Positions 1 to 11,050 of a DNA stretch of 64,000 nt are shown here, in pieces (within the stretch, counting starts at the first letter, position 1; each line of letters starts with the position of its first letter). The stretch covers positions 930,001 through 994,000 of the forward strand of contig JAECZT010000006.1 of NCBI GenBank assembly GCA_020055645.1, read 5' to 3'. Source of the stretch: Tomocerus qinae (Eukaryota > Arthropoda > Collembola > Entomobryomorpha > Tomoceridae). A model generated the notes under the pieces. The model ran no database searches. It saw nothing but the letters and a program-made list of their open reading frames with translations, and had not been told where the DNA came from. Position numbers and translations under genes: made by a program.

Positions 1-3000
1 GTCTTCTCGTACAAGCTAAAAAAAATGATTTTTTTCAAGTGTTTCTCTAAATAAACGTTATATTACTAAGGTTTTTGGTCTTCTCTTACAAGCTCAAAAA
101 AATGATTTTTTTCAAGTGTCTAGTCTTTATTAATGTTATATTACTAAGGTTTATGGTCTCCTCGTACAAGCTCAAAAAAATGATTTTTTTCAAGTGTCTA
201 GTCTTCATTAATGTTATATTACTAAGGTTTTTGGTCTCCTCGTACAAGCTCAAAAATATGATTTTTTTCAAGTGTCTAGTCTTTATTAATGTTATATTAC
301 TAAGGTTTATGGTCTCCTCGTACAAGCTCAAAAAAATGATTTTTTTCAAGTGGTTCTCTAAATAGACGTTATATTACTAAGGTTTTTGGTCTCCTCGTAC
401 AAGCTCAAAAAAATGATTTTTTTCAAGTGTCTAGTCTTTATTAATGTTATATTACTAAGGTTTTTGGGCTCCTCGTACAACCTCAAAAAAATGATTTTTT
501 TCAAGTGTCTAGTCTTTATTAATGTTATATTACTAAGGTTTTTGGTCTCCTCGTACAAGCTCAAAAAAATGATTTTTTTCAAGTGGTTCTCTAAATAGAC
601 GTTATATTACTAAGGTTTTGGTCTCCTCGTACAAGCTCAAAAAAATGATTTTTTTCAAGTGTCTAGTCTTTATTAATGTTATATTACTAAGGTTTTTGGT
701 CTCCTCGTACAAGCTCAAAAAAATGATTTTTTTTCAAGTGTCTAGTCTTCATTAATGTTATATTACTAAGGTTTATGGTCTCCTCGTACAAGCTCAAAAA
801 AATGATTTTTTTCAAGTGGTTCTCTAAATAGACGTTATATTACTAAGGTTTTTGGTCTCCTCGTACAAGCTCAAAAAAATAATTTTTTTCAAGTGTCTAG
901 TCTTTATTAATGTTATATTACTAAGGTTTTTGATCTCCTCGTACAAGCTCAAAAAAATGATTTTTTTCAAGTGTCTAGTCTTTATTAATGTTATATTACT
1001 AAGGTTTATGGTCTCCTCGTACAAGCTAAAAAAATGATTTTTTTCAAGTGTTTCTCTAAATAAACGTTATATTACTAAGGTTTTTGGTCTCCTCGTACAA
1101 GCTCAAAAAAATGATTTTTTTCAAGTGTCTAGTCTTCATTAATGTTATATTACTAAGGTTTTTGGTCTCCTCGTACAAGCTCAAAAAATGATTTTTTTCA
1201 AGTGTCTAGTCTTCATTAATGTTATATTACTAAGGTTTTTGGTCTCCTCGTACAAGCTCAAAAAAATGATTTTTTTCAAGTGTTTCTTTAAATAAACGTT
1301 ATATTACTAAGGTTTTTGGTCTTCTCGTACAAGCTCAAAAAAATGATTTTTTTCAAGTGTCTAGTCTTTATTAATGTTATATTACTAAGGTTTTTGGTCT
1401 CCTCATACAAGCTCAAAAAAATGATTTCTTTCAAGTGCCTAGTCTTTAATAATGTTTTATTACTAAGGTTTATGGTCTCCTCGTACAAGCTCAAAAAATG
1501 ATTTTTTTCAAGTGTCTATTAATGTTATATTACTAAGGATTTTGGGCTCCTCGTACAAGCTCAAAAAAATGATTTTTTTCAAGTGTCTAGTCTTTATTAA
1601 TGTTATATTACTAAGGTTTATGGTCTCCTCGTACAAGCTCAAAAAAATGATTTTTTTCAAGTGTCTTGTCTTTATTAATGTTATATTACTAAGGTTTTTG
1701 GTCTCCTCGTACAAGCTCAAAAAAATGATTTTTTTCAAGTGTCTAGTCTTTATTAATGTTATATTACTAAGGTTTTTGGTCTCCTCGTACAAGCTCAAAA
1801 AAATGATTTTTTTCAAGTGTTTCTTTAAATAAACGTTATATTACTAAGGTTTTTGGTCTCCTCGTACAAGCTCAAAAAAATGATTTTTTTCAAGTGTCTA
1901 GTCTTTATTAATGTTATATTACTAAGGTTTTTGGTCTCCTCGTACAAGCTCAAAAAAATGATTTTTTTCAAGTGTCTAGTCTTTATTAATGTTATATTAC
2001 TAAGGTGTATGGTCTTCTCATACAAGCTCAAAAAAATGATTTTTTTCAAGTGTCTAGTCTTTATTAATGTTATATTACTAAGGTTTTTGGGCTCCTCGTA
2101 CAACCTCAAAAAAATGATTTTTTTCAAGTGTCTAGTCTTTATTAATGTTATATTACTAAGGTGTATGGTCTTCTCATACAAGCTCAAAAAAATGATTTTT
2201 TTCAAGTGTCTAGTCTTTATTAATGTTATATTACTAAGGTTTTTAGGCTCCTCGTACAACCTCAAAAAAATGATTTTTTTCAAGTGTCTAGCCTTTATTA
2301 ATGTTATATTACTAAGGTTTATGGTCTCCTCGTACAAGCTCAAAAAATGATTTTTTTCAAGTGGTTCTCTAAATAAACGCTATATTACTAAGGTTTTTGG
2401 TATCCTCGTACAAACTCAAAAAAATGATTTTTTTCAAGTGTCTAGTCTTCATTAATGTTATATTACTAAGGTTTATGGTCTCCTCGTACAAGCTCAAAAA
2501 ATGATTTTTTTCAAGTGGTTCTATAAATAAACGTTATATTACTAGGGTTTTTGGTCTTCTCGTACAAGCTCAAAAAAATGATTTTTTTCAAGTGTCTTGT
2601 CTTTATTAATGTTATATTACTAAGGTTTATGGGCTCCTCGTACAAGCTCAAAAAAATGATTTTTTTCAAGTGTCTAGTCTTCATTAATGTTATATTACTA
2701 AGGTTTATGGTCTCCTCGTACAAGCTCAAAAAATGATTTTTTTCAAGTGGTTCTCTAAATAGACGTTATATTACTAAGGTTTTTGGTCTCCTCGTACAAG
2801 CTCAAAAAATAGATTTTTTTCAATTGTCTAGTCTTTATTAATGTTATATTACTAAGGTGTATGTTCTTCTCATACAAGCTCAAAAAAATGATTTTTTTCA
2901 AGTGTCTAGTCTTTATTAATGTTATATTACTAAGGTTTTTGGGCTCCTCGTACAACCTCAAAAAAATGATTTTTTTCAAGTGTCTAGTCTTTATTAATGT

Positions 3001-3287
3001 TATATTACTAAGGTGTATGGTCTCCTCGTACAAGCTCAAAAAAAATGATTTTTTTCAAGTGTCTAGTCTTTATTAATGTTATATTACTAAGGTTTTTGGG
3101 CTCCTCGTACAACCTCAAAAAAATGATTTTTTTCAAGTGTCTAGCCTTTATTAATGTTATATTACTAAGGTTTATGGTCTCCTCGTTCAAGCTCAAAAAA
3201 TGATTTTTTTCAAGTGGTTCTCTAAATAAACGCTATATTACTAAGGTTTTTGGTATCCTCGTACAAACTCAAAAAAATGATTTTTTT
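1..3287 (+). repeat. 77-78 bp satellite array, forward orientation, left block part 1
   Basis: Roughly 42 head-to-tail copies of an AT-rich monomer. A typical monomer reads ggtttttggtctcctcgtac, then aagctc, then the core AAAAAAATGATTTTTTT, then caagtgtctagtctttatta and atgttatattactaa. Class A copies (78 bp) carry gtgtctagtctttattaatg after the core. Class B copies (77 bp) carry gtggttctctaaatagacg there instead. Sub-variants typical of this block are gggctcctcgtacaacctc, gtgtatggtcttctcatac and tctagccttt. Some copies have six rather than seven A in the core. Open frames on both strands (for example 1825-2343 and 1853-2350) only read the 26-codon repeat. The block is cut at 3287, inside a monomer core, by the retroelement. 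No gene, promoter or RNA gene is seen in it. Confidence 0.97.
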
Positions 3288-4107
3288 AGAAGTGAGATCC
3301 TTGTAGGAAATAAAATCGTCCCAAAATCCAAATTCTCAGTCTTCTAAAATATTTTATTGCACCTTTAACTGTAGAGACGCGTTTCAAAATTTATCATCAG
3401 ATTCTACAATACAATCATTCATTAATGATTAGAGAAATTACATGGTTACAAGTTAAATAAGAATATAAGTCATTAAAAGGAAATAAATAATATACAATGA
3501 TGCCATTGAAGTCTCATACCTACCTACTTAGTTATGGTTAAAAAATCCATATAAATATACCGTCCTTACAAAGAATGGTCCAGTTCGATGTCTTTTACAA
3601 ACTATAAGTATATACGAAAATGTTATAAAAGTAGACAATTCAGTCAATATACATTACTTACTTAGAACTGTAATAACTTAATGATAAATTGATCATATGT
3701 AAATAGAGTTATATTTAATTACCTGGATACTGATACAAATTTAGTAATTGGACAATAATTACTGAAGAAAGTAATTAAAAATTACATTTTGGCATCTTTA
3801 ACTTCGTGTTTACTTTGTGCCTTTCACTTAAAGCGAAAGAAGGAAACTGCCCTCTGCTTTTTAATTTACCTCTATAATATCAATTAACCCCATATACATG
3901 TTAACATATAGTATCAGGTTACACAGAATTACTACTTACGATTAGTACTTAAAATGCTAGTTATTGAATTGGTTTTAGTAAATGCTATACATATTTGCAA
4001 ATTAGCAATCCATTTTTCAAATCTTTTATCTTTACATTCGGAGAGAATTCTAAAAATTTCATTTTTAACAATATTGCCTAAATTATTAATATTATTATAG
4101 AATGGGA
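3286..4107 (-). repeat. Left direct repeat (pseudo-LTR) of the PLE, 822 bp
   Basis: This segment recurs at 7686-8511. The two copies begin in register at an offset of 4400 and end at 4404. The right copy has a 3-bp insertion (gtt, near 8056) and a 1-bp insertion near 8213, and I see two substitutions near 3802, so identity is above 99 percent. Read on the minus strand it starts with the last codons of the RT (stop at 3934-3932), followed by a non-coding 3' region that holds a hammerhead-like core at 3408-3370. The shared ttaga at the start and the shared final a may partly come from the satellite target. Because the repeat includes coding sequence, it reflects partial tandem duplication rather than a true LTR. 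Confidence 0.95.
3370..3408 (-). ncRNA. Hammerhead-ribozyme-like core, left pseudo-LTR
   Basis: On the minus strand the order is tgtaga, at, CTGATGA, an 8-nt AT-only segment, GAAAC, GCGTC, tctaca. CTGATGA, GAAA and the GTC cleavage triplet are the invariant parts of a type I hammerhead. Predicted cleavage is after the C of GTC, between 3376 and 3375. The flanks tgtaga and tctaca pair as stem I (6 bp, with an extra AT beside the core). Stem III would be only two base pairs with a 2-nt loop, but ACGCGT is self-complementary, as expected for hammerheads that work as dimers. Stem II is weak (AT only), the main reason for doubt. PLE pseudo-LTRs are known to carry hammerheads, so the location supports the call. 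Activity is not shown. Confidence 0.62.
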
Positions 4108-4340
4108 CGACTAAAAATATTTTATTGTTGATAACATTATGGGGTTTCTTCTGAGAAAATAATATTGTACTTAGAAAGGATTTCGGAGGGAGTGGATTCT
4201 TAAATTACGTAATATTAAGTCTTTCTTGGGTGTAAGAACAGATTCTCTAGTAATATTATTTAATTTACGTGTACAATCAGTAAGTATTTTCCTAGGGATA
4301 GCACTCTCAACAAGAATTTTTTTCATTTCATTATCTATTT
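3932..4340 (-). pseudogene. PLE RT C-terminal region, no GIY-YIG recognised
   Basis: One frame from about 4338 reads IDNEMKKILVESAIPRKI and continues to a stop near 4195. Another carries VINNKIFLVVPFYNNINN and ends at the stop codon 3934-3932. The VVP-type motif followed by a short helix-rich stretch fits the end of the PLE RT module. In endonuclease-bearing PLEs a C-terminal GIY-YIG domain follows; here the protein simply stops after SILSTNRK. This suggests an endonuclease-lacking PLE or loss of the domain. The last part lies inside the left direct repeat. Confidence 0.65.
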
Positions 4341-5191
4341 CTTTGTGAGTAAGCGTCGTCCCGATTAGAGAAACATTTAATAATACAGAATACCAGCAGA
4401 ATATGGCAGAGATGTTTTAACATGGTTTGCGTGGTTGGAATAAAAATGTAAATACATATGTTTACTCTATTTCGGCATTTCACGATAGATGCTAGTTTCA
4501 ATTTGATTGGCTTATTAAGTTTAATGTTTAGGTCCAGAGAAATTGACTTGACTAAAAGACCATTCATAGTGTACCAACTTTAAAAATTGATGAGAAAATA
4601 ATGATTTCAGATAACCATTAGTGTCACTTTATTTCATCAACATCGATAATTAACAATATATCATCTATAAATCTATTCATACACACTATTTCCTTTCTAT
4701 TATCGAACAAACTTTTAATTTCCCTCGAAACTGTCAATATTGCTTACTACTACACTAGAACTAGCACCCATAGGAATACCCTTGTGTTGTTTAAAAGTAT
4801 TGAATTATTATATTCAATAAAATTAAAAGTCTAAACGCCAAATCCAGGAGTTTACGAACAAGTTGAACTGCAGAGATATTGAAAGGCAAGTTGATAAGGT
4901 GTCTATTTTCGACAAAGAAAGCTTGAATACATTGATTTTTACAAATATTTAGTGGTAGACTGGGATATAAAGACTCAATATCTGCTTATTTACAATAATA
5001 TATTTTCTGTCTGGGTTCAATTTGATTTCCGTTTTAATCTTAAAAATTAAATGATTAGTATCAATGATTACATCGGGCATTAAGTTCATTATAGGTTGTA
5101 AGATTTTATCGAGATTAACAACATTAAGGTTTCTATTGCAGCAGTTAACATTGCTACTAATGGGTTCTACCTTTAGGAAAATCATCAACAT
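4341..5191 (-). pseudogene. PLE reverse transcriptase palm and thumb, multiply frameshifted
   Basis: The catalytic core is readable only by changing frame. The frame from 5191 gives PISSNVNCCNRNLNVVNLDK. A second frame carries motif A, DIESLYPSLPLN, from 4982. A third carries motif B, KQHKGIPMGASSS, from 4792. Another carries motif C, NRFIDDILLI, from 4677, including the paired aspartates of the active site. The thumb shows SLDLNIKLNK near 4535 and YLHFYSNHANHVKTSLPYS from 4454. These are family hallmarks of Penelope-like RTs. The aspartates of A and C are still encoded, but the frames are not connected (at least four shifts between 5191 and 4340), so no active enzyme can be made from this copy unless the sequence contains errors. 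Confidence 0.82.
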
Positions 5192-6095
5192 TCTCGTTAA
5201 ACTTGTGTATTTTCGGAAGAATATAGAATTTAGCTGCTTTATAGTTAGAATCTAGGAGTTTTGGTAGTTTAAGTTCTATTGGCATTTTAAAACTTTTTAC
5301 ATCGTCAATTAGAGATTCAGTAGACACAATAAAATGTGATATAGTAGATGGAAAATAAGTAGTCATATTCTCTAGCTGTGAAAACACTTCTTTGTCGTAG
5401 TCATTTCTGAACATTATACAAGTCCCTGCATTTTTATCTGCGGGTTTGATAATAACATTATTTTTATCCTGGAAATCCTTACCTACCTCAGCAAATTCTT
5501 TAGAAATAAGTACATTAGGTATAAAATTTTGTTTAAGTCTGGCAATAAAATCATTGAGTGCTTCCGCTGCGTTTGGGAATAGCACTTTTTCTGTCGTCGA
5601 ATGATATATTTTATTTCTGCTTTTCGTAAATTGGTAGACAATATTTTCGAAAGTACCTAAAGGCTTGCTTTCTTTATCCGAATAATAGGCATTCCATCCT
5701 AATTTTCGTATACATTCAGTATAGCATTCTTTTAGTTTAGTAACATTTGGGGTTTTATCAATACTAAATTTTAAGCCTAACCAAAGAAGTATTTTTAGTT
5801 CAAAAGGAATAGTTAGGTTTGTTAGGTTGTGTATGTAGTTAGGTACAGTTTTTACATCATTGTAGAGTCTGTATAACTTATTGTTGGTATTATGAGTAGG
5901 TTGTCTATCTAGTTTAAACACTTTCTTCATATTACAGAATTTACGATTTTTACTTACTCTAAGGGTACAACATGAGCTGTTGTTGTCAACAGAATTAAAA
6001 CTATTAGTCTTACTTAAAAAATTAACATAGTCATTCTTATTATAAAAATTAAGATTATTATTTACAATTTGATTTACTTCAATGGCATCTGTATC
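5157..6095 (-). pseudogene. PLE reverse transcriptase, N-terminal part and fingers
   Basis: The frame runs from 6095, just after the TAG at 6098-6096, through an internal ATG at 5930 to a TAG at 5157. Counting from that ATG (257 codons): IPFELKILLWLGLKFS at residues 41-56 resembles the region before the fingers in PLE RTs. IIKPADKN (160-167) and FYILPKIHK (235-243) are the fingers motifs, in the form typical of PLE and related RTs. The frame ends in KGRTH. The expected continuation, an arginine-proline-isoleucine type motif, lies in the next frame, so a 1-base frameshift near 5165 breaks the protein. The shift falls at a short A-run, so assembly error is possible. The upstream TAG is the last of three in-frame stops. 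Confidence 0.8.
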
Positions 6096-6818
6096 CTATG
6101 AAATAGCATTAATAACAGCGCTACCTTTAACATTATCATCATAGTAGTTTACGTTAGTCCGTGTCCCTGATTTTTGGTTAAAACCTCTACTTGGAAATGT
6201 ATTTCTATTAGGAGATATGCCTCTATTGTTAGAATAGCCCCTGTTTTGAAAAACGCCTTTTCCTCTGGTTTGAAATGTGCCTCTACCCCTGTATGAGTTT
6301 CTATTATGGAACGATCCCCTGTTATTAAAAGTTCCTCGCCTTGCAAATGAATTCCTATGCTTAAAATTATTAGGAATTTCGTGTTGATTTATCTCATGTG
6401 CAGATTCTTGGTTGGTTTGTGCAAAACCATTAGCCTTAGGAAATTCCACTCTAGGTTTTAAATACTTATCGTTATGTTTTATACTCGGTCCCTGTACTGC
6501 TAAGTCTGCTGCATTTTGATTTGTAACAATATCCAAAGAAGGTTTATGTATGTTTGAATTTGAAATTGCTTTTGTGCCTTTATCTAAAAATTCCTTAAAT
6601 TCCATTTTAACGGTTTCGCCTTTTAATTCAATTTTCCCATTTTCAATATCTTCGCAAATTTTTAAAGCATATCTATTATATATAGAAGGTGGTTCATTAG
6701 GCTTTACTTTTCTCCAATACGGAAGGCTATTAGTCACTTTGCTTTTCTTTTTCGTCCCAATTAAATATTTTAATTTTTTAAAATTTTTCGCAAATTCGGT
6801 TCTAGCTTTAAAAGTAGC
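6096..6818 (-). pseudogene. PLE ORF, Arg-Gly-rich segment (RNA-binding-like)
   Basis: Open frame of about 240 codons from just after the TAG at 6821-6819 to the TAG at 6098-6096. The first half contains LPYWRKVKPNEPPSIYNRYA and an acidic/Lys mix. The second half is a low-complexity region with repeated RG and NRG units (for example RGTFNNRGSFHNRNSYRGRG), like RGG-box segments that bind RNA. Gag-like or ORF1-like chaperone roles are known for such regions in retroelements; here that is inference. The GTG at 6737 is not a credible eukaryotic start, so the segment most likely belonged to a longer protein. The frame continues past the TAG into the RT segment with no shift. Confidence 0.55.
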
Positions 6819-6821
6819 CTA

Positions 6822-7076
6822 TTGCAAAAAATGTGGCACATACAAATCTTCTGTCGAATTTTTGGCCTCTGAATTGATTTGTTTAATGAACTGCAAAATG
6901 ATATGATTAATCTTAGTAATTAAAAATTGCTTTTGAAAGGTATTTCCAGCTACCGCAGTTCTTTGATATTGCATAGAGAAAGACTGTTTGAGGTCGTAGA
7001 GATTTTCGAAAGTTTGTAATGGTAAGATATTATATTGTTGGTATTTTACAAATCTATATCTTAGGATTAAAAAGGC
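6822..7076 (-). pseudogene. PLE ORF, second in-frame segment between TGA and TAG
   Basis: These 85 codons are open in the same frame as 7502-7077, between the TGA at 7079-7077 and the TAG at 6821-6819. The sequence contains YQQYNILPLQTFENLYDLKQ and ends in YVPHFLQ before the TAG. No family is recognised. It has no ATG near its start, which argues that it was translated only as part of a longer protein before the stop arose. The neighbouring frame alignment is the main evidence that it was coding. Confidence 0.45.
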
Positions 7077-7502
7077 TCACTCCTTTATCTGTGTAGCATT
7101 ATCGAAGTATTTTTTCGCAGAATAGTTAATTTGAAAATAAGACACAAAAAGTTTCAAAATTGGCACGTACAGACTATTAGGTATAGAAATTTCAGGCTTA
7201 TAACTCAACATTTTATCCATGTCTTCCTCTCTAGGGATTATTGGTGGATATTGAGGGTTATCTAAAAATTTGTCGATGAATTCCCTAACAAGGATATCCT
7301 TCGAATAGTCATTTACATAATCGTGTATACAACAAATTTTGAGTGGATCAATACTTTCCAAACTAACCTTAATGTTAACATTAGAATTTTTAGACTTCTT
7401 AGTTATGTAGTCTTCGGCGAGAATTCCTTCGTTTGGCCGTTTCAATTTGTTTGGAGTAGAAGTATGTGAAGGTTGTAGCCGCTTTTGGTTCATGGGTAGC
7501 AT
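7077..7502 (-). pseudogene. PLE ORF N-terminal segment, basic, possible nuclear-localising region
   Basis: From ATG 7502 to the TGA at 7079-7077 this reads about 141 residues. The first third is rich in Lys, Arg, Pro and Ser, with basic clusters such as NQKRLQ and ITKKSKN that could act in nuclear targeting or nucleic-acid binding (inference). The rest, with IDPLKICCIHDYVNDYSKD and PQYPPIIPREEDMDK, matches no family I recognise. After the TGA the same frame continues at 7076 without a shift for another 85 codons to a TAG at 6821-6819, and then onwards. I therefore treat it as the first part of one interrupted element protein rather than a separate gene. Unidentified N-terminal regions before the RT occur in several PLE lineages. 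Confidence 0.55.
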
Positions 7503-7685
7503 TGTTTCTTCAAAAATATCTTTGTGAATCGGATTCAATCGCTAGTGAACATAAAAATTCCATTTCCATGTGTTTCCCTTTCGGTGGGGTGCGTAGTATA
7601 ATTATAAAAGGTTGGAAAACTTGGAGATTCCTGTGGAATGCTTGCAAAAAGATTTGTCTCAAATTTTATGGGTCGATGACGAAGA
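7503..7685 (-). other. PLE 5' leader between pseudo-LTR and first reading frame
   Basis: This 183-bp stretch lies between the right direct repeat and the first plausible ATG (7502-7500, minus). In the long decayed frame there is a TAG just upstream of codon 7538, so the coding start must lie below it. The codon at 7538 is TTG, which makes the ATG at 7502 the better start for a eukaryotic gene. No other structure was recognised. Confidence 0.5.
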
Positions 7686-7769
7686 TTAGAAGTGAGATCC
7701 TTGTAGGAAATAAAATCGTCCCAAAATCCAAATTCTCAGTCTTCTAAAATATTTTATTGCACCTTTAAC

Positions 7770-7808
7770 TGTAGAGACGCGTTTCAAAATTTATCATCAG
7801 ATTCTACA
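7770..7808 (-). ncRNA. Hammerhead-ribozyme-like core, right pseudo-LTR
   Basis: Identical to the motif at 3370-3408 and exactly 4400 bp away. The core CTGATGA lies at + strand 7794-7800 (as tcatcag), GAAAC at 7781-7785 (as gtttc) and the GTC triplet at 7776-7778 (as gac). Predicted cleavage is between 7776 and 7775. Cleavage at both copies of a minus-strand transcript would release a 4.4 kb RNA covering one full unit of the element. The weak stem II applies here too. Confidence 0.62.
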
Positions 7809-8335
7809 ATACAATCATTCATTAATGATTAGAGAAATTACATGGTTACAAGTTAAATAAGAATATAAGTCATTAAAAGGAAATAAATAATATACAATGA
7901 TGCCATTGAAGTCTCATACCTACCTACTTAGTTATGGTTAAAAAATCCATATAAATATACCGTCCTTACAAAGAATGGTCCAGTTCGATGTCTTTTACAA
8001 ACTATAAGTATATACGAAAATGTTATAAAAGTAGACAATTCAGTCAATATACATTGTTACTTACTTAGAACTGTAATAACTTAATGATAAATTGATCATA
8101 TGTAAATAGAGTTATATTTAATTACCTGGATACTGATACAAATTTAGTAATTGGACAATAATTACTGAAGAAAGTAATTAAAAATTACATTTTGGCATCT
8201 TTAATCTCGTGTTTTACTTTGTGCCTTTCACTTAAAGCGAAAGAAGGAAACTGCCCTCTGCTTTTTAATTTACCTCTATAATATCAATTAACCCCATATA
8301 CATGTTAACATATAGTATCAGGTTACACAGAATTA

Positions 8336-8510
8336 CTACTTACGATTAGTACTTAAAATGCTAGTTATTGAATTGGTTTTAGTAAATGCTATACATATTT
8401 GCAAATTAGCAATCCATTTTTCAAATCTTTTATCTTTACATTCGGAGAGAATTCTAAAAATTTCATTTTTAACAATATTGCCTAAATTATTAATATTATT
8501 ATAGAATGGG
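8336..8510 (-). pseudogene. Truncated RT C-terminal fragment in the right pseudo-LTR
   Basis: This duplicates the coding end found at 3932-4106. The open frame begins in satellite sequence at 8521 and enters the element at 8510, giving PFYNNINNLGNIVKN and ending at SILSTNRK with the stop at 8338-8336. It is a by-product of the partial tandem structure and not a gene in its own right. Its presence shows that the upstream copy of the tandem was cut off inside the RT coding region. Confidence 0.8.
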
Positions 8511-11050
8511 ATTTTTTTCAAGTGGTTCTCTAAATAAACGTTATATTACTAAGGTTTTTGGTCTCCTCGTACAAGCTCAAAAAAATGATTTTTTTCAAGT
8601 GTCTAGTCTTTATTAATGTTATATTACTAAGATGTATGGTCTTCTCGTACAAGCTCAAAAAAATGATTTTTTTCAAGTGTCTAGTCTTCATTAATGTTAT
8701 ATTACTAAGGTTTTTAGTCTCCTCGTACAAGCTCAAAAAAATGACTTTTTTCAAGTGGTTCTCTAAATAGACGTTATATTACTAAGGTTTTTGGTCTCCT
8801 CGTACAAGCTCAAAAAAATGATTTTTTTCAAGTGTCTAGTCTTCGTTAATGTTTTATTACTATGGTTTTTGATCTCCTCAAACAAGCTTCAAAAAATGAT
8901 TTTTTCCAAGTGTCTAGTCTTCATTAATGTTTTATTACTAATGTTTTTGGTCTTCTCGTACAAGCTAAAAAAAATGATTTTTTTCAAGTGTTTCTCTAAA
9001 TAAACGTTATATTACTAAGGTTTTTGGTCTTATCTTACAAGCTCAAAAAAATGATTTTTTTCAAGTGTCTAGTCTTGATTAATGTTATATTACTAAGGTT
9101 TATGGTCTCCTCGTACAAGCTCAAAAAATGATTTTTTTCAAGTAGTTCTCTAAATAGACGTTATATTAGTAAGGTTTTTGGTCTCCTCGTACAAGCTCAA
9201 AAAAATGATTTTTTTCAAGTGTCTAGTCTTTATTAATGTTATATTACTAAGGTTTATGGTCTCCTCGTACAAGCTCAAAAAAATGATTTTTTTCAAGTGT
9301 CTAGCCTTTAATAATGTTATATTACTAAGGTTTTTGGGCTCCTCGTACAAGCTCAAAAAAATGATTTTTTTCAAGTGTCTAGTCTTTATTAATGTTATAT
9401 TACTAAGGTTTTTGGGCTCCTCGTACAACCTCAAAAAAATGATTTTTTTCAAGTGTCTAGCCTTTATTAATGTTATATTACTAAGGTTTATGGTCTCCTC
9501 GTACAAGCTCAAAAAAATGATTTTTTTCAAGTGTCTAGTCTTTATTAATGTTATATTACTAAGGTTTTTGGGCTCCTCGTACAAGCTCAAAAAAATGATT
9601 TTTTTCAAGTGTCTAGCCTTTATTAATATTATATTACTAAGGTTTATGGTCTCCTCGTACAAGCTCAAAAAATGATTTTTTTCAAGTGGTTCTCTAAATA
9701 GACGTTATATTACTAAGGTTTTTGGTCTCCTCGTAGAAGCTCAAAAAAATGATTTTTTTCAAGTGTCTAGTCTTCCTTAATGTTTTATTGCCACTAAGGT
9801 TTTATGGTCTCCTCGTACAAGCTCAAAAAATGATTTTTTCAAGTGGTTCTATAAATAAACGTTATATTACTAGGGTTTTTGGTCTTCTCCTACAAGCTCA
9901 AAAAAATGATTTTTTTCAAGTGTCTAGTCTTTATTAATGTTATATTACTAAGGTTTATGGGCTCCTCGTACAAGCTCAAAAAAATTATTTTTTTCAAGTG
10001 TCTAGTCTTTATTAATGTTATATTACTAAGGTTTATGGTCTCCTCATACAAGCTCAAAAAATGATTTTTTTCAAGTGGTTCTCTAAATAGACGTTATATT
10101 ACTAAGGTTTTTGGTCTCCTCGTACAAGCTCAAAAAAATGATTTTTTTCAGGTGTCTAGTCTTTATTAATGTTATATTACTAAGGTGTATGGTCTTCTCA
10201 TACAAGCTCAAAAAAATGATTTTTTTCAAGTGTCTAGTCTTTATTAATGTTATATTACTAAGGTTTTTGGGCTCCTCGTACAACCTCAAAAAAATGATTT
10301 TTTTCAAGTGTCTAGTCTTTATTAATGTTATATTACTAAGGTGTATGGTCTTCTCATACAAGCTCAAAAAAATGATTTTTTTCAAGTGTCTAGTCTTTAT
10401 TAATGTTATATTACTAAGGTTTTTAGGCTCCTCGTACAACTTCAAAAAAATGATTTTTTTCAAGTGTCCAGCCTTTATTAATGTTATATTACTAAGGTTT
10501 TTGGGCTCAAAAAATGATTTTTTTCAAGTGGTTCTCTAAATAAACGCTATATTACTAAGGTTTTTGGTATCCTCGTACAAACTCAAAAAAATGATTTTTT
10601 TGAAGTGTCTAGTCTTCATTAATGTTTTATTACTAAGGTTTATGGTCTCCTCGTACAAGCTCAAAAAATGATTTTTTCAAGTGGTTCTATAATTAAACGT
10701 TATATTACTAGGGTTTTTGGTCTTCTCGTACAAGCTCAAAAAAATGATTTTTTCAAGCGTCTTGCTCTTTTATTAAAATGTTTATATTACTAAGATTTTT
10801 GTTCTCCTCGTACAAGCTCAAAAAAATGATTTTTTTCAAGTGTCTAGTCTTTATTAATGTTATATTACTAAGGTTTATGGTCTCCTCGTACAAGCTCAAA
10901 AAATGATTTTTTTCAAGTGGTTCTCTAAATAGACGTTATATTACTAAGGTTTTTGGTCTCCTCGTACAAGCTCAAAAAATAGATTTTTTTCAATTGTCTA
11001 GTCTTTATTAATGTTATATTACTAAGGTGTATGTTCTTCTCATACAAGCT

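Follow-up and report, generated by a model that had tools for sequence, protein, structure and literature searches.

Minimal type I hammerhead ribozymes in the pseudo-LTRs of Penelope-like elements (PLEs), which may act as dimers, are described in the sections of PMC7761336, PMC6155905 and PMC7229834 available to us; for cleavage of these small motifs as dimers, the three papers cite Cervera and de la Pena 2014 and Lunse et al. 2017. The role of the hammerhead in these elements is called a mystery in the available part of PMC7761336. For the lizard PLE PAc, excerpts of PMC11167929 place the cut 26 nt and the start of reverse transcription 111–118 nt into the ORF, and subtraction of these values puts the start 85–92 nt past the cut. 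The same excerpts report that the PAc hammerhead cleaves only when protein is added, that mutating the hammerhead does not abolish insertion in vitro, and that RNA-seq reads neither started nor stopped at the cut (PMC11167929). Natural hammerheads with U3-A8 cores, with U10.1-U11.1 mismatches or with a stem II of one pair appear in the part of PMC3088659 that we draw on, and hammerheads with helix II absent or reduced to a single pair are active in vitro according to a section of PMC544870. We consider it likely that the locus analysed here, a dead copy of a PLE in the genome of Tomocerus qinae, carries a type I hammerhead of the small pseudo-LTR kind that acts in pairs when intact.

The window, a stretch of 64,000 nucleotides (C6:930001–994000), contains a broken PLE copy at 3286–8511 on the minus strand, recognised by its end repeats and a piece of reverse transcriptase (RT) and inserted in a 78-bp satellite. 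The 3′ pseudo-LTR (3286–4107) and the 5′ pseudo-LTR (7686–8511), both on the minus strand, are identical at 820 of 826 positions. Also on the minus strand are an N-terminal part of the RT frame at 5157–6095 and its C-terminal end at 3932–4204, partly within the 3′ pseudo-LTR; the coding frame is interrupted by stops and frame changes. The copy is bounded by a probable 9-nt target-site duplication, GATTTTTTT, at 3279–3287 on the 3′ side and 8510–8518 on the 5′ side. The satellite occupies about 59 kb (1–3287 and 8510–64000), nearly all of the remaining window, with longer periods of 154–155 and 232 bp, and switches strand near 15 kb.

The window RT piece shares 97–98% identity with other genomic copies (97% with locus L015). 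The RT of L015 matches RVT_1 at 34.5 bits against a Pfam cut-off of 29.6; the window piece itself has no Pfam match to RVT_1. We call the RT PLE-type from the motifs KPADK, LPKIHK and FIDD, which we take to be characteristic, and other hallmarks of these elements are present, namely tandem units with pseudo-LTRs and partial or inverted copies. A GIY-YIG endonuclease is a canonical PLE trait that is missing in endonuclease-deficient PLEs, so it is not obligatory; it was absent from the Pfam matches of seven window pieces and of three ORFs of L015 and L034. The probable 9-nt duplication is seen in the window copy despite the lack of a recognised GIY-YIG in the RT ORFs (L015, L034 and window 3932–7541). 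Searches of viral contigs, genome contigs and phages returned no relatives of the RT, and comparison with PDB sequences gave no match. In the window and in L015 an in-frame stop separates ORF1 from the RT frame (window 6096–6098), and in several PLE lineages the RT match contains a single TAG in an otherwise long open frame; stop-codon readthrough is possibly involved. ORF1 matched nothing in Pfam and includes a stretch rich in arginine and glycine. At five loci (L012, L014, L018, L023, L060), PLE copies or motifs lie head to head or closely opposed.

Each pseudo-LTR carries the same hammerhead motif on the minus strand, at 3370–3408 in the 3′ repeat and 7770–7808 in the 5′ repeat. Positions 3408–3370 read TGTAGA AT CTGATGA TAAATTTT GAA ACGCGT C TCTACA, and 7808–7770, at a spacing of 4400 bp, are letter-identical. 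In the 3′ pseudo-LTR, the 5′ side of stem I (3403–3408) is followed by an unpaired AT (3401–3402), CTGATGA (3394–3400), the stem II segment (3386–3393), GAA (3383–3385), the ACGCGT of stem III (3377–3382), C17 (3376) and the 3′ side of stem I (3370–3375), all on the minus strand. Cleavage is predicted to separate 3376 from 3375 in this copy and 7776 from 7775 in the other. The type I core order, CUGANGA ... GAAA ... UH, is found in the window copies and their relatives alike. An earlier note made from the window's letters had proposed this layout, with its words, order, spacing and pairing 6-mers, its placement in both direct repeats of a PLE 4400 bp apart, and a cut at 3375 or 7775, and our analysis agrees on each of these points. 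Model R1, which was built without the window rows yet includes two rows of the same family (family 1), gave the window motifs 48.2 bits.

Comparison with relatives changed the reading of two other features. The window copies keep 6 bp of stem I, offset by two bases from the core, and the note had described an AT bulge beside this stem. In all nine other family 1 sites (L001–L005, L007, L011 and L012 twice) C17 is followed by ATTCTACA, whose pairing with TGTAGAAT gives an 8-bp stem I flush with the core in 9/9. The apparent bulge is really a 2-nt deletion on the 3′ side, and among family 1 sites this loss of AT is confined to the two window copies. Since both window repeats are without the AT, its loss would predate the repeat duplication or have spread between the repeats later. 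The deletion should weaken or kill the two window motifs. Stem II of family 1 consists of two A-U pairs after a spare U and is weak under any energy model. The note had regarded an AT-only stem II as unusual and a possible sign of decay; we rejected that interpretation because stem II is minimal throughout the PLE group studied here (25 versions). The window motif is a genuine PLE hammerhead in a damaged copy.

Among 3000 dinucleotide-shuffled versions of a single 4.4-kb unit, the words CTGATGA...GAAA occurred in 245, the words with a 2-bp stem III in 190, and the words with stem III and a stem I of ≥4 bp in 29 or of ≥6 bp in 3. Across the genome (334 Mb, 115 contigs), the pattern CTGATGAN{4,30}GAAACGCGTC gave 15 matches against 0 in the reversed control. 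The loose core CTGATGAN{4,30}GAAACN{2,8}GTC gave 144 against 143, i.e. no enrichment; core words by themselves are therefore no proof, and the case rests on stem I pairing and PLE context. Another pattern search returned 76 matches against 37 in the control, of which 11, 4 and 34 were assigned by eye to families 1, 2 and 3 and 27 to none of these, and a further search returned 35 against 40, seven of them family 4. From this family make-up, only the PLE families stand above chance. Loose-pattern matches outside the families mostly had 0–2 pairs in stem I among the matches listed, and pairing was weak at L064, L081 and L082. Two further loci, L046 and L047, are diverged pieces of a family 1 pseudo-LTR with a G-U-rich or mismatched stem I. 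A repeated sequence at L024, L025, L028, L029 and L031 contains CTGATGA...GAAACGGGTC and, by eye, a candidate outer stem ATGAAT/ATTCAT; its stem II does not fit and there is no PLE RT match nearby.

The covariance-model check with a relaxed threshold that the note had suggested went against the motif: an Rfam search of the window returned no hammerhead up to E 10, and none reached the gathering score in the window or in eight relatives. Matches to SL1 (E 4.5) and U6atac (E 4.8) were dismissed as chance. The Rfam miss is a detection limit rather than a defining trait of the ribozyme, and Rfam overlooks such minimal motifs.

The pattern searches delineated four further families. Stem I and stem III are GTGC/GCAC and ACGCGT in family 2, TAGAGT/ACTCTA and ACTAGT in family 3, 3+7 bp with a small loop and ACGT in family 4, and TTAGC/GCTAA and ACTAGT in family 5. 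Families 2–4 are PLEs with the RT on the motif strand, the stem I of family 4 having been worked out after its RT was known. Family 5 was chosen by motif and stem I first, and the subsequent search located a PLE RT 441 nt upstream of it. A same-strand RT match ends 441–722 nt upstream of the motif in 22 of 29 motif sites; the other seven (L009, L010, L014, L017, L023, L030, L035) had no RT match within the piece examined.

We also approached the motif from the RT. A protein search of the genome gave at least 128 PLE RT matches; for 26 of these, 221–401 bp were taken at the expected distance of the motif, and 23 of the 26 loci carried a hammerhead at the expected place and on the RT strand under a rule that left positions 3 and 8 free. 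Stem III was an exact palindrome in 20 of the 23. Shuffled pieces passed in 128 of 2600 cases, 44 with a palindromic stem III. The rule had been widened stepwise, from CTGANGA only to compensated pairs and then to any base at 3 and 8, and was shaped on the first six pieces (L086–L091); the later 20 loci are independent of it, and 18 pass. Two pieces, L100 and L101, started just beyond the motif, and L102 and L103 were substituted before counting. There was one opposite-strand match (L096) and one overlapping spurious match (L106). The three misses retain the core words: stem I is reduced to 1 bp in L088, is by eye 2 bp, a loop and 8 bp in L107, and has lost its 3′ side in L112. A U3-A8 core was present in 8/26 surveyed loci, L088 counted. 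Genome-wide, TTGANAA...GAAACCGGTC gave 42 matches against 2 in the control and CTGANGA...GAAACCGGTC 25 against 1; using 90 (hand count) of the at least 128 RT rows, 15/42 and 4/25, respectively, lay at pseudo-LTR positions of a same-strand RT, against 0 and 0 for the flipped control. At C1:34060245–34074843, seven ACCGGT-type motifs are spaced 2260–2597 bp, too tight for full PLE units; this run may represent a tandem derivative of reduced unit length.

Conservation of the core in other genomic copies, to which the note had looked for a decision, speaks strongly for the motif. We compared 25 versions, omitting repeats or near-repeats (L090, L093, L096, L111, L113) as well as the decayed L112, L046, L047 and window forms, whose inclusion would lower the stem I score, and including L107 and L088 although both fail the survey rule. 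Of the 100 cells at stem I positions 1.1–1.4, 94 form Watson-Crick pairs; the mean over shuffles was 56.5 with a maximum of 76, and 0/20000 reached 94, with row kinship left in. By this alignment, stem I covaries across the 25 versions. At positions 3 and 8, 19 versions have C-G and the other 6 have U-A, with no mixed combination; the idea that a U3-A8 core is new was rejected, as the available part of PMC3088659 reports it. Stem III, whose palindrome the note had pointed out in the window, is self-complementary in 25/25, as an exact palindrome in 21 and about one centre base in 4, with 12 different sequences, which indicates that it keeps a palindrome rather than a fixed sequence. After A9 comes a spare base, a feature known from viroid work, and then a closing pair that is GC in 20, AT in 4 and GT in 1, with stem II totalling 1–3 bp; in the family 2 and L088 rows stem II could also pair without the spare base. 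An earlier test on seven rows gave mixed results: cells changed on both sides numbered 9 against 3.7 expected (0/500 shuffles), pairs changed on both sides 4 against 2.9 (116/500) and pair types 5 against 5.5 (431/500).

Covariation of stem I together with a stem III that is always self-complementary fits a two-molecule ribozyme, and because a monomer folding on a 6-nt palindrome would have a loop of only 2 nt, two molecules or units would be the natural partners. Beyond the directly observed anatomy, conservation, covariation, position and tandem spacing, we infer transcription, dimer folding in cells, cleavage and a use for it. Intact relatives, with an 8-bp stem I, a spare base, a 1–3-bp stem II and a self-complementary stem III too short for closure within one motif, would be transcribed from head-to-tail arrays into RNA with one motif per ~4.3–4.4 kb. 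Pairing via ACGCGU would join two motifs, whether they belong to the same multimer or to separate RNAs, each providing the core for the other's cut, which would follow C17. The 2-nt deletion next to the cut should hamper this process in the window copies. Head-to-tail motifs do occur, three of them spaced 4365 bp, and as they are head to tail, cleavage of an array transcript would free unit-length RNA. On the window's own contig, eleven family 3 motifs lie head to tail 4135–4282 bp apart in a PLE array (C6:2152666–2195193).

Folding calculations were another check named in the note. Relative to two monomers, the hammerhead-register dimer gains 7.1 kcal/mol for the window copy, 8.1 kcal/mol for intact family 1 and 2.1–7.5 kcal/mol for families 2–5, and the unconstrained fold of the window RNA is a dimer via stem I and ACGCGU. 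Unconstrained intact versions prefer competing pairs over the hammerhead, so the energies are merely suggestive. An arrangement with stems II and III both formed between the same two molecules was dropped by reasoning on topology.

Homology among inserted copies extends past the motif. In an analysis covering 28 of the 56 known sites of families 1–4 (11/11, 4/4, 8/34 and 5/7, respectively), element sequence continued beyond the predicted cut in 28/28. Homology mostly ends 88–98 nt beyond the cut in family 1 (81 for L017 and some pairs), 87–92 nt in family 2 (66 for L014), 84–93 nt in family 3 and 77–88 nt in family 4; the window copy ends at 89 nt. It extends to 700 nt for internal array units and the L036–L037 duplicate. 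Because the search patterns reached no further than the cut, they would also have picked up copies that end at it. Given that all 28 sites extend past the cut, inserted copies probably derive from RNA uncut at the motif, and the RNA that gave rise to the window insertion was probably uncut at both of its motifs.

These tails are also what would be expected if the motif were no longer a ribozyme and served as a structural mark that places or presents the template, with reverse transcription starting ~77–98 nt downstream. The narrow range of end distances in four families and the 28/28 sites extending beyond the cut agree with this explanation, as do the PAc start 85–92 nt past the cut and the insertion of PAc ribozyme mutants reported in excerpts of PMC11167929. 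We nonetheless find it unlikely: unpaired core bases are fixed and positions 3 and 8 change only pairwise, as for a working core, and the PAc motif cleaves once protein is added (PMC11167929, same excerpts). That protein dependence suits a different proposal, in which intact relatives are cut as protein-helped single motifs and stem III is self-complementary only incidentally, as a consequence of forming a hairpin with a 2-nt loop; a 6-nt palindrome can indeed be depicted as two pairs and a loop of 2 nt. The middle bases would be free in such a hairpin, yet they are matched in all even-length versions (21/25), and the four odd-length versions match except at the centre base, which leads us to consider this proposal improbable as well. 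Chance resemblance of the window motif would agree with the equality of the loose core and its reversed control (144 versus 143) and with Rfam searches that lacked a hammerhead; it is contradicted by the RT-anchored survey and the covariation, only 3/3000 shuffles match, and we consider it exceedingly improbable.

We retain the reading of a small PLE hammerhead that would act in pairs when intact. A bolder version, in which this PLE group uses an obligate symmetric dimer of half-ribozymes, active solely while two RNAs of the element or two multimer units are paired, the palindrome is the dimerisation signal, the cut trims or disposes of non-template multimers and the motif sets the downstream start of reverse transcription, is offered tentatively and may well prove wrong. 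A single 334-Mb genome with at least 128 PLE RT matches and 25 natural motif versions provides a comparative test bed.

Compared with the dimer-acting small PLE hammerheads, which we know through citing papers (PMC7761336, PMC6155905 and PMC7229834, in part), the motifs described here share the type I order, the place in the pseudo-LTR, a diminished stem III, tandem copies and proposed dimers; possible differences of the T. qinae PLEs are a stem III that is self-complementary in 25/25 versions and the spare base before a 1–3-bp stem II. As in lizard PAc, the motif lies at the junction of pseudo-LTR and ORF, and the 89 nt past the cut in the window falls within the 85–92 nt of PAc; unlike the elements here, PAc has a C-terminal GIY-YIG and was assayed, whereas our analysis is of sequence alone (PMC11167929, from the excerpts cited above). 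U3-A8 and a minimal stem II also link our motifs to the natural variants in the available part of PMC3088659, which are several scattered examples, whereas ours belong to PLE lineages of one genome. An absent or one-pair helix II is shared with the artificial minizymes and miniribozymes in the section of PMC544870 we draw on, which differ in being engineered and trans-acting on a target. A limited literature search, in which no query was aimed at either point, did not turn up a stem III that is self-complementary without exception or a constant uncut tail. Earlier publications already cover small PLE hammerheads acting as dimers, cores with U3-A8 and stems II of one pair, and to these the window motif adds a damaged example; what this analysis contributes beyond them is the self-complementarity of stem III in 25 versions and the uncut tail.
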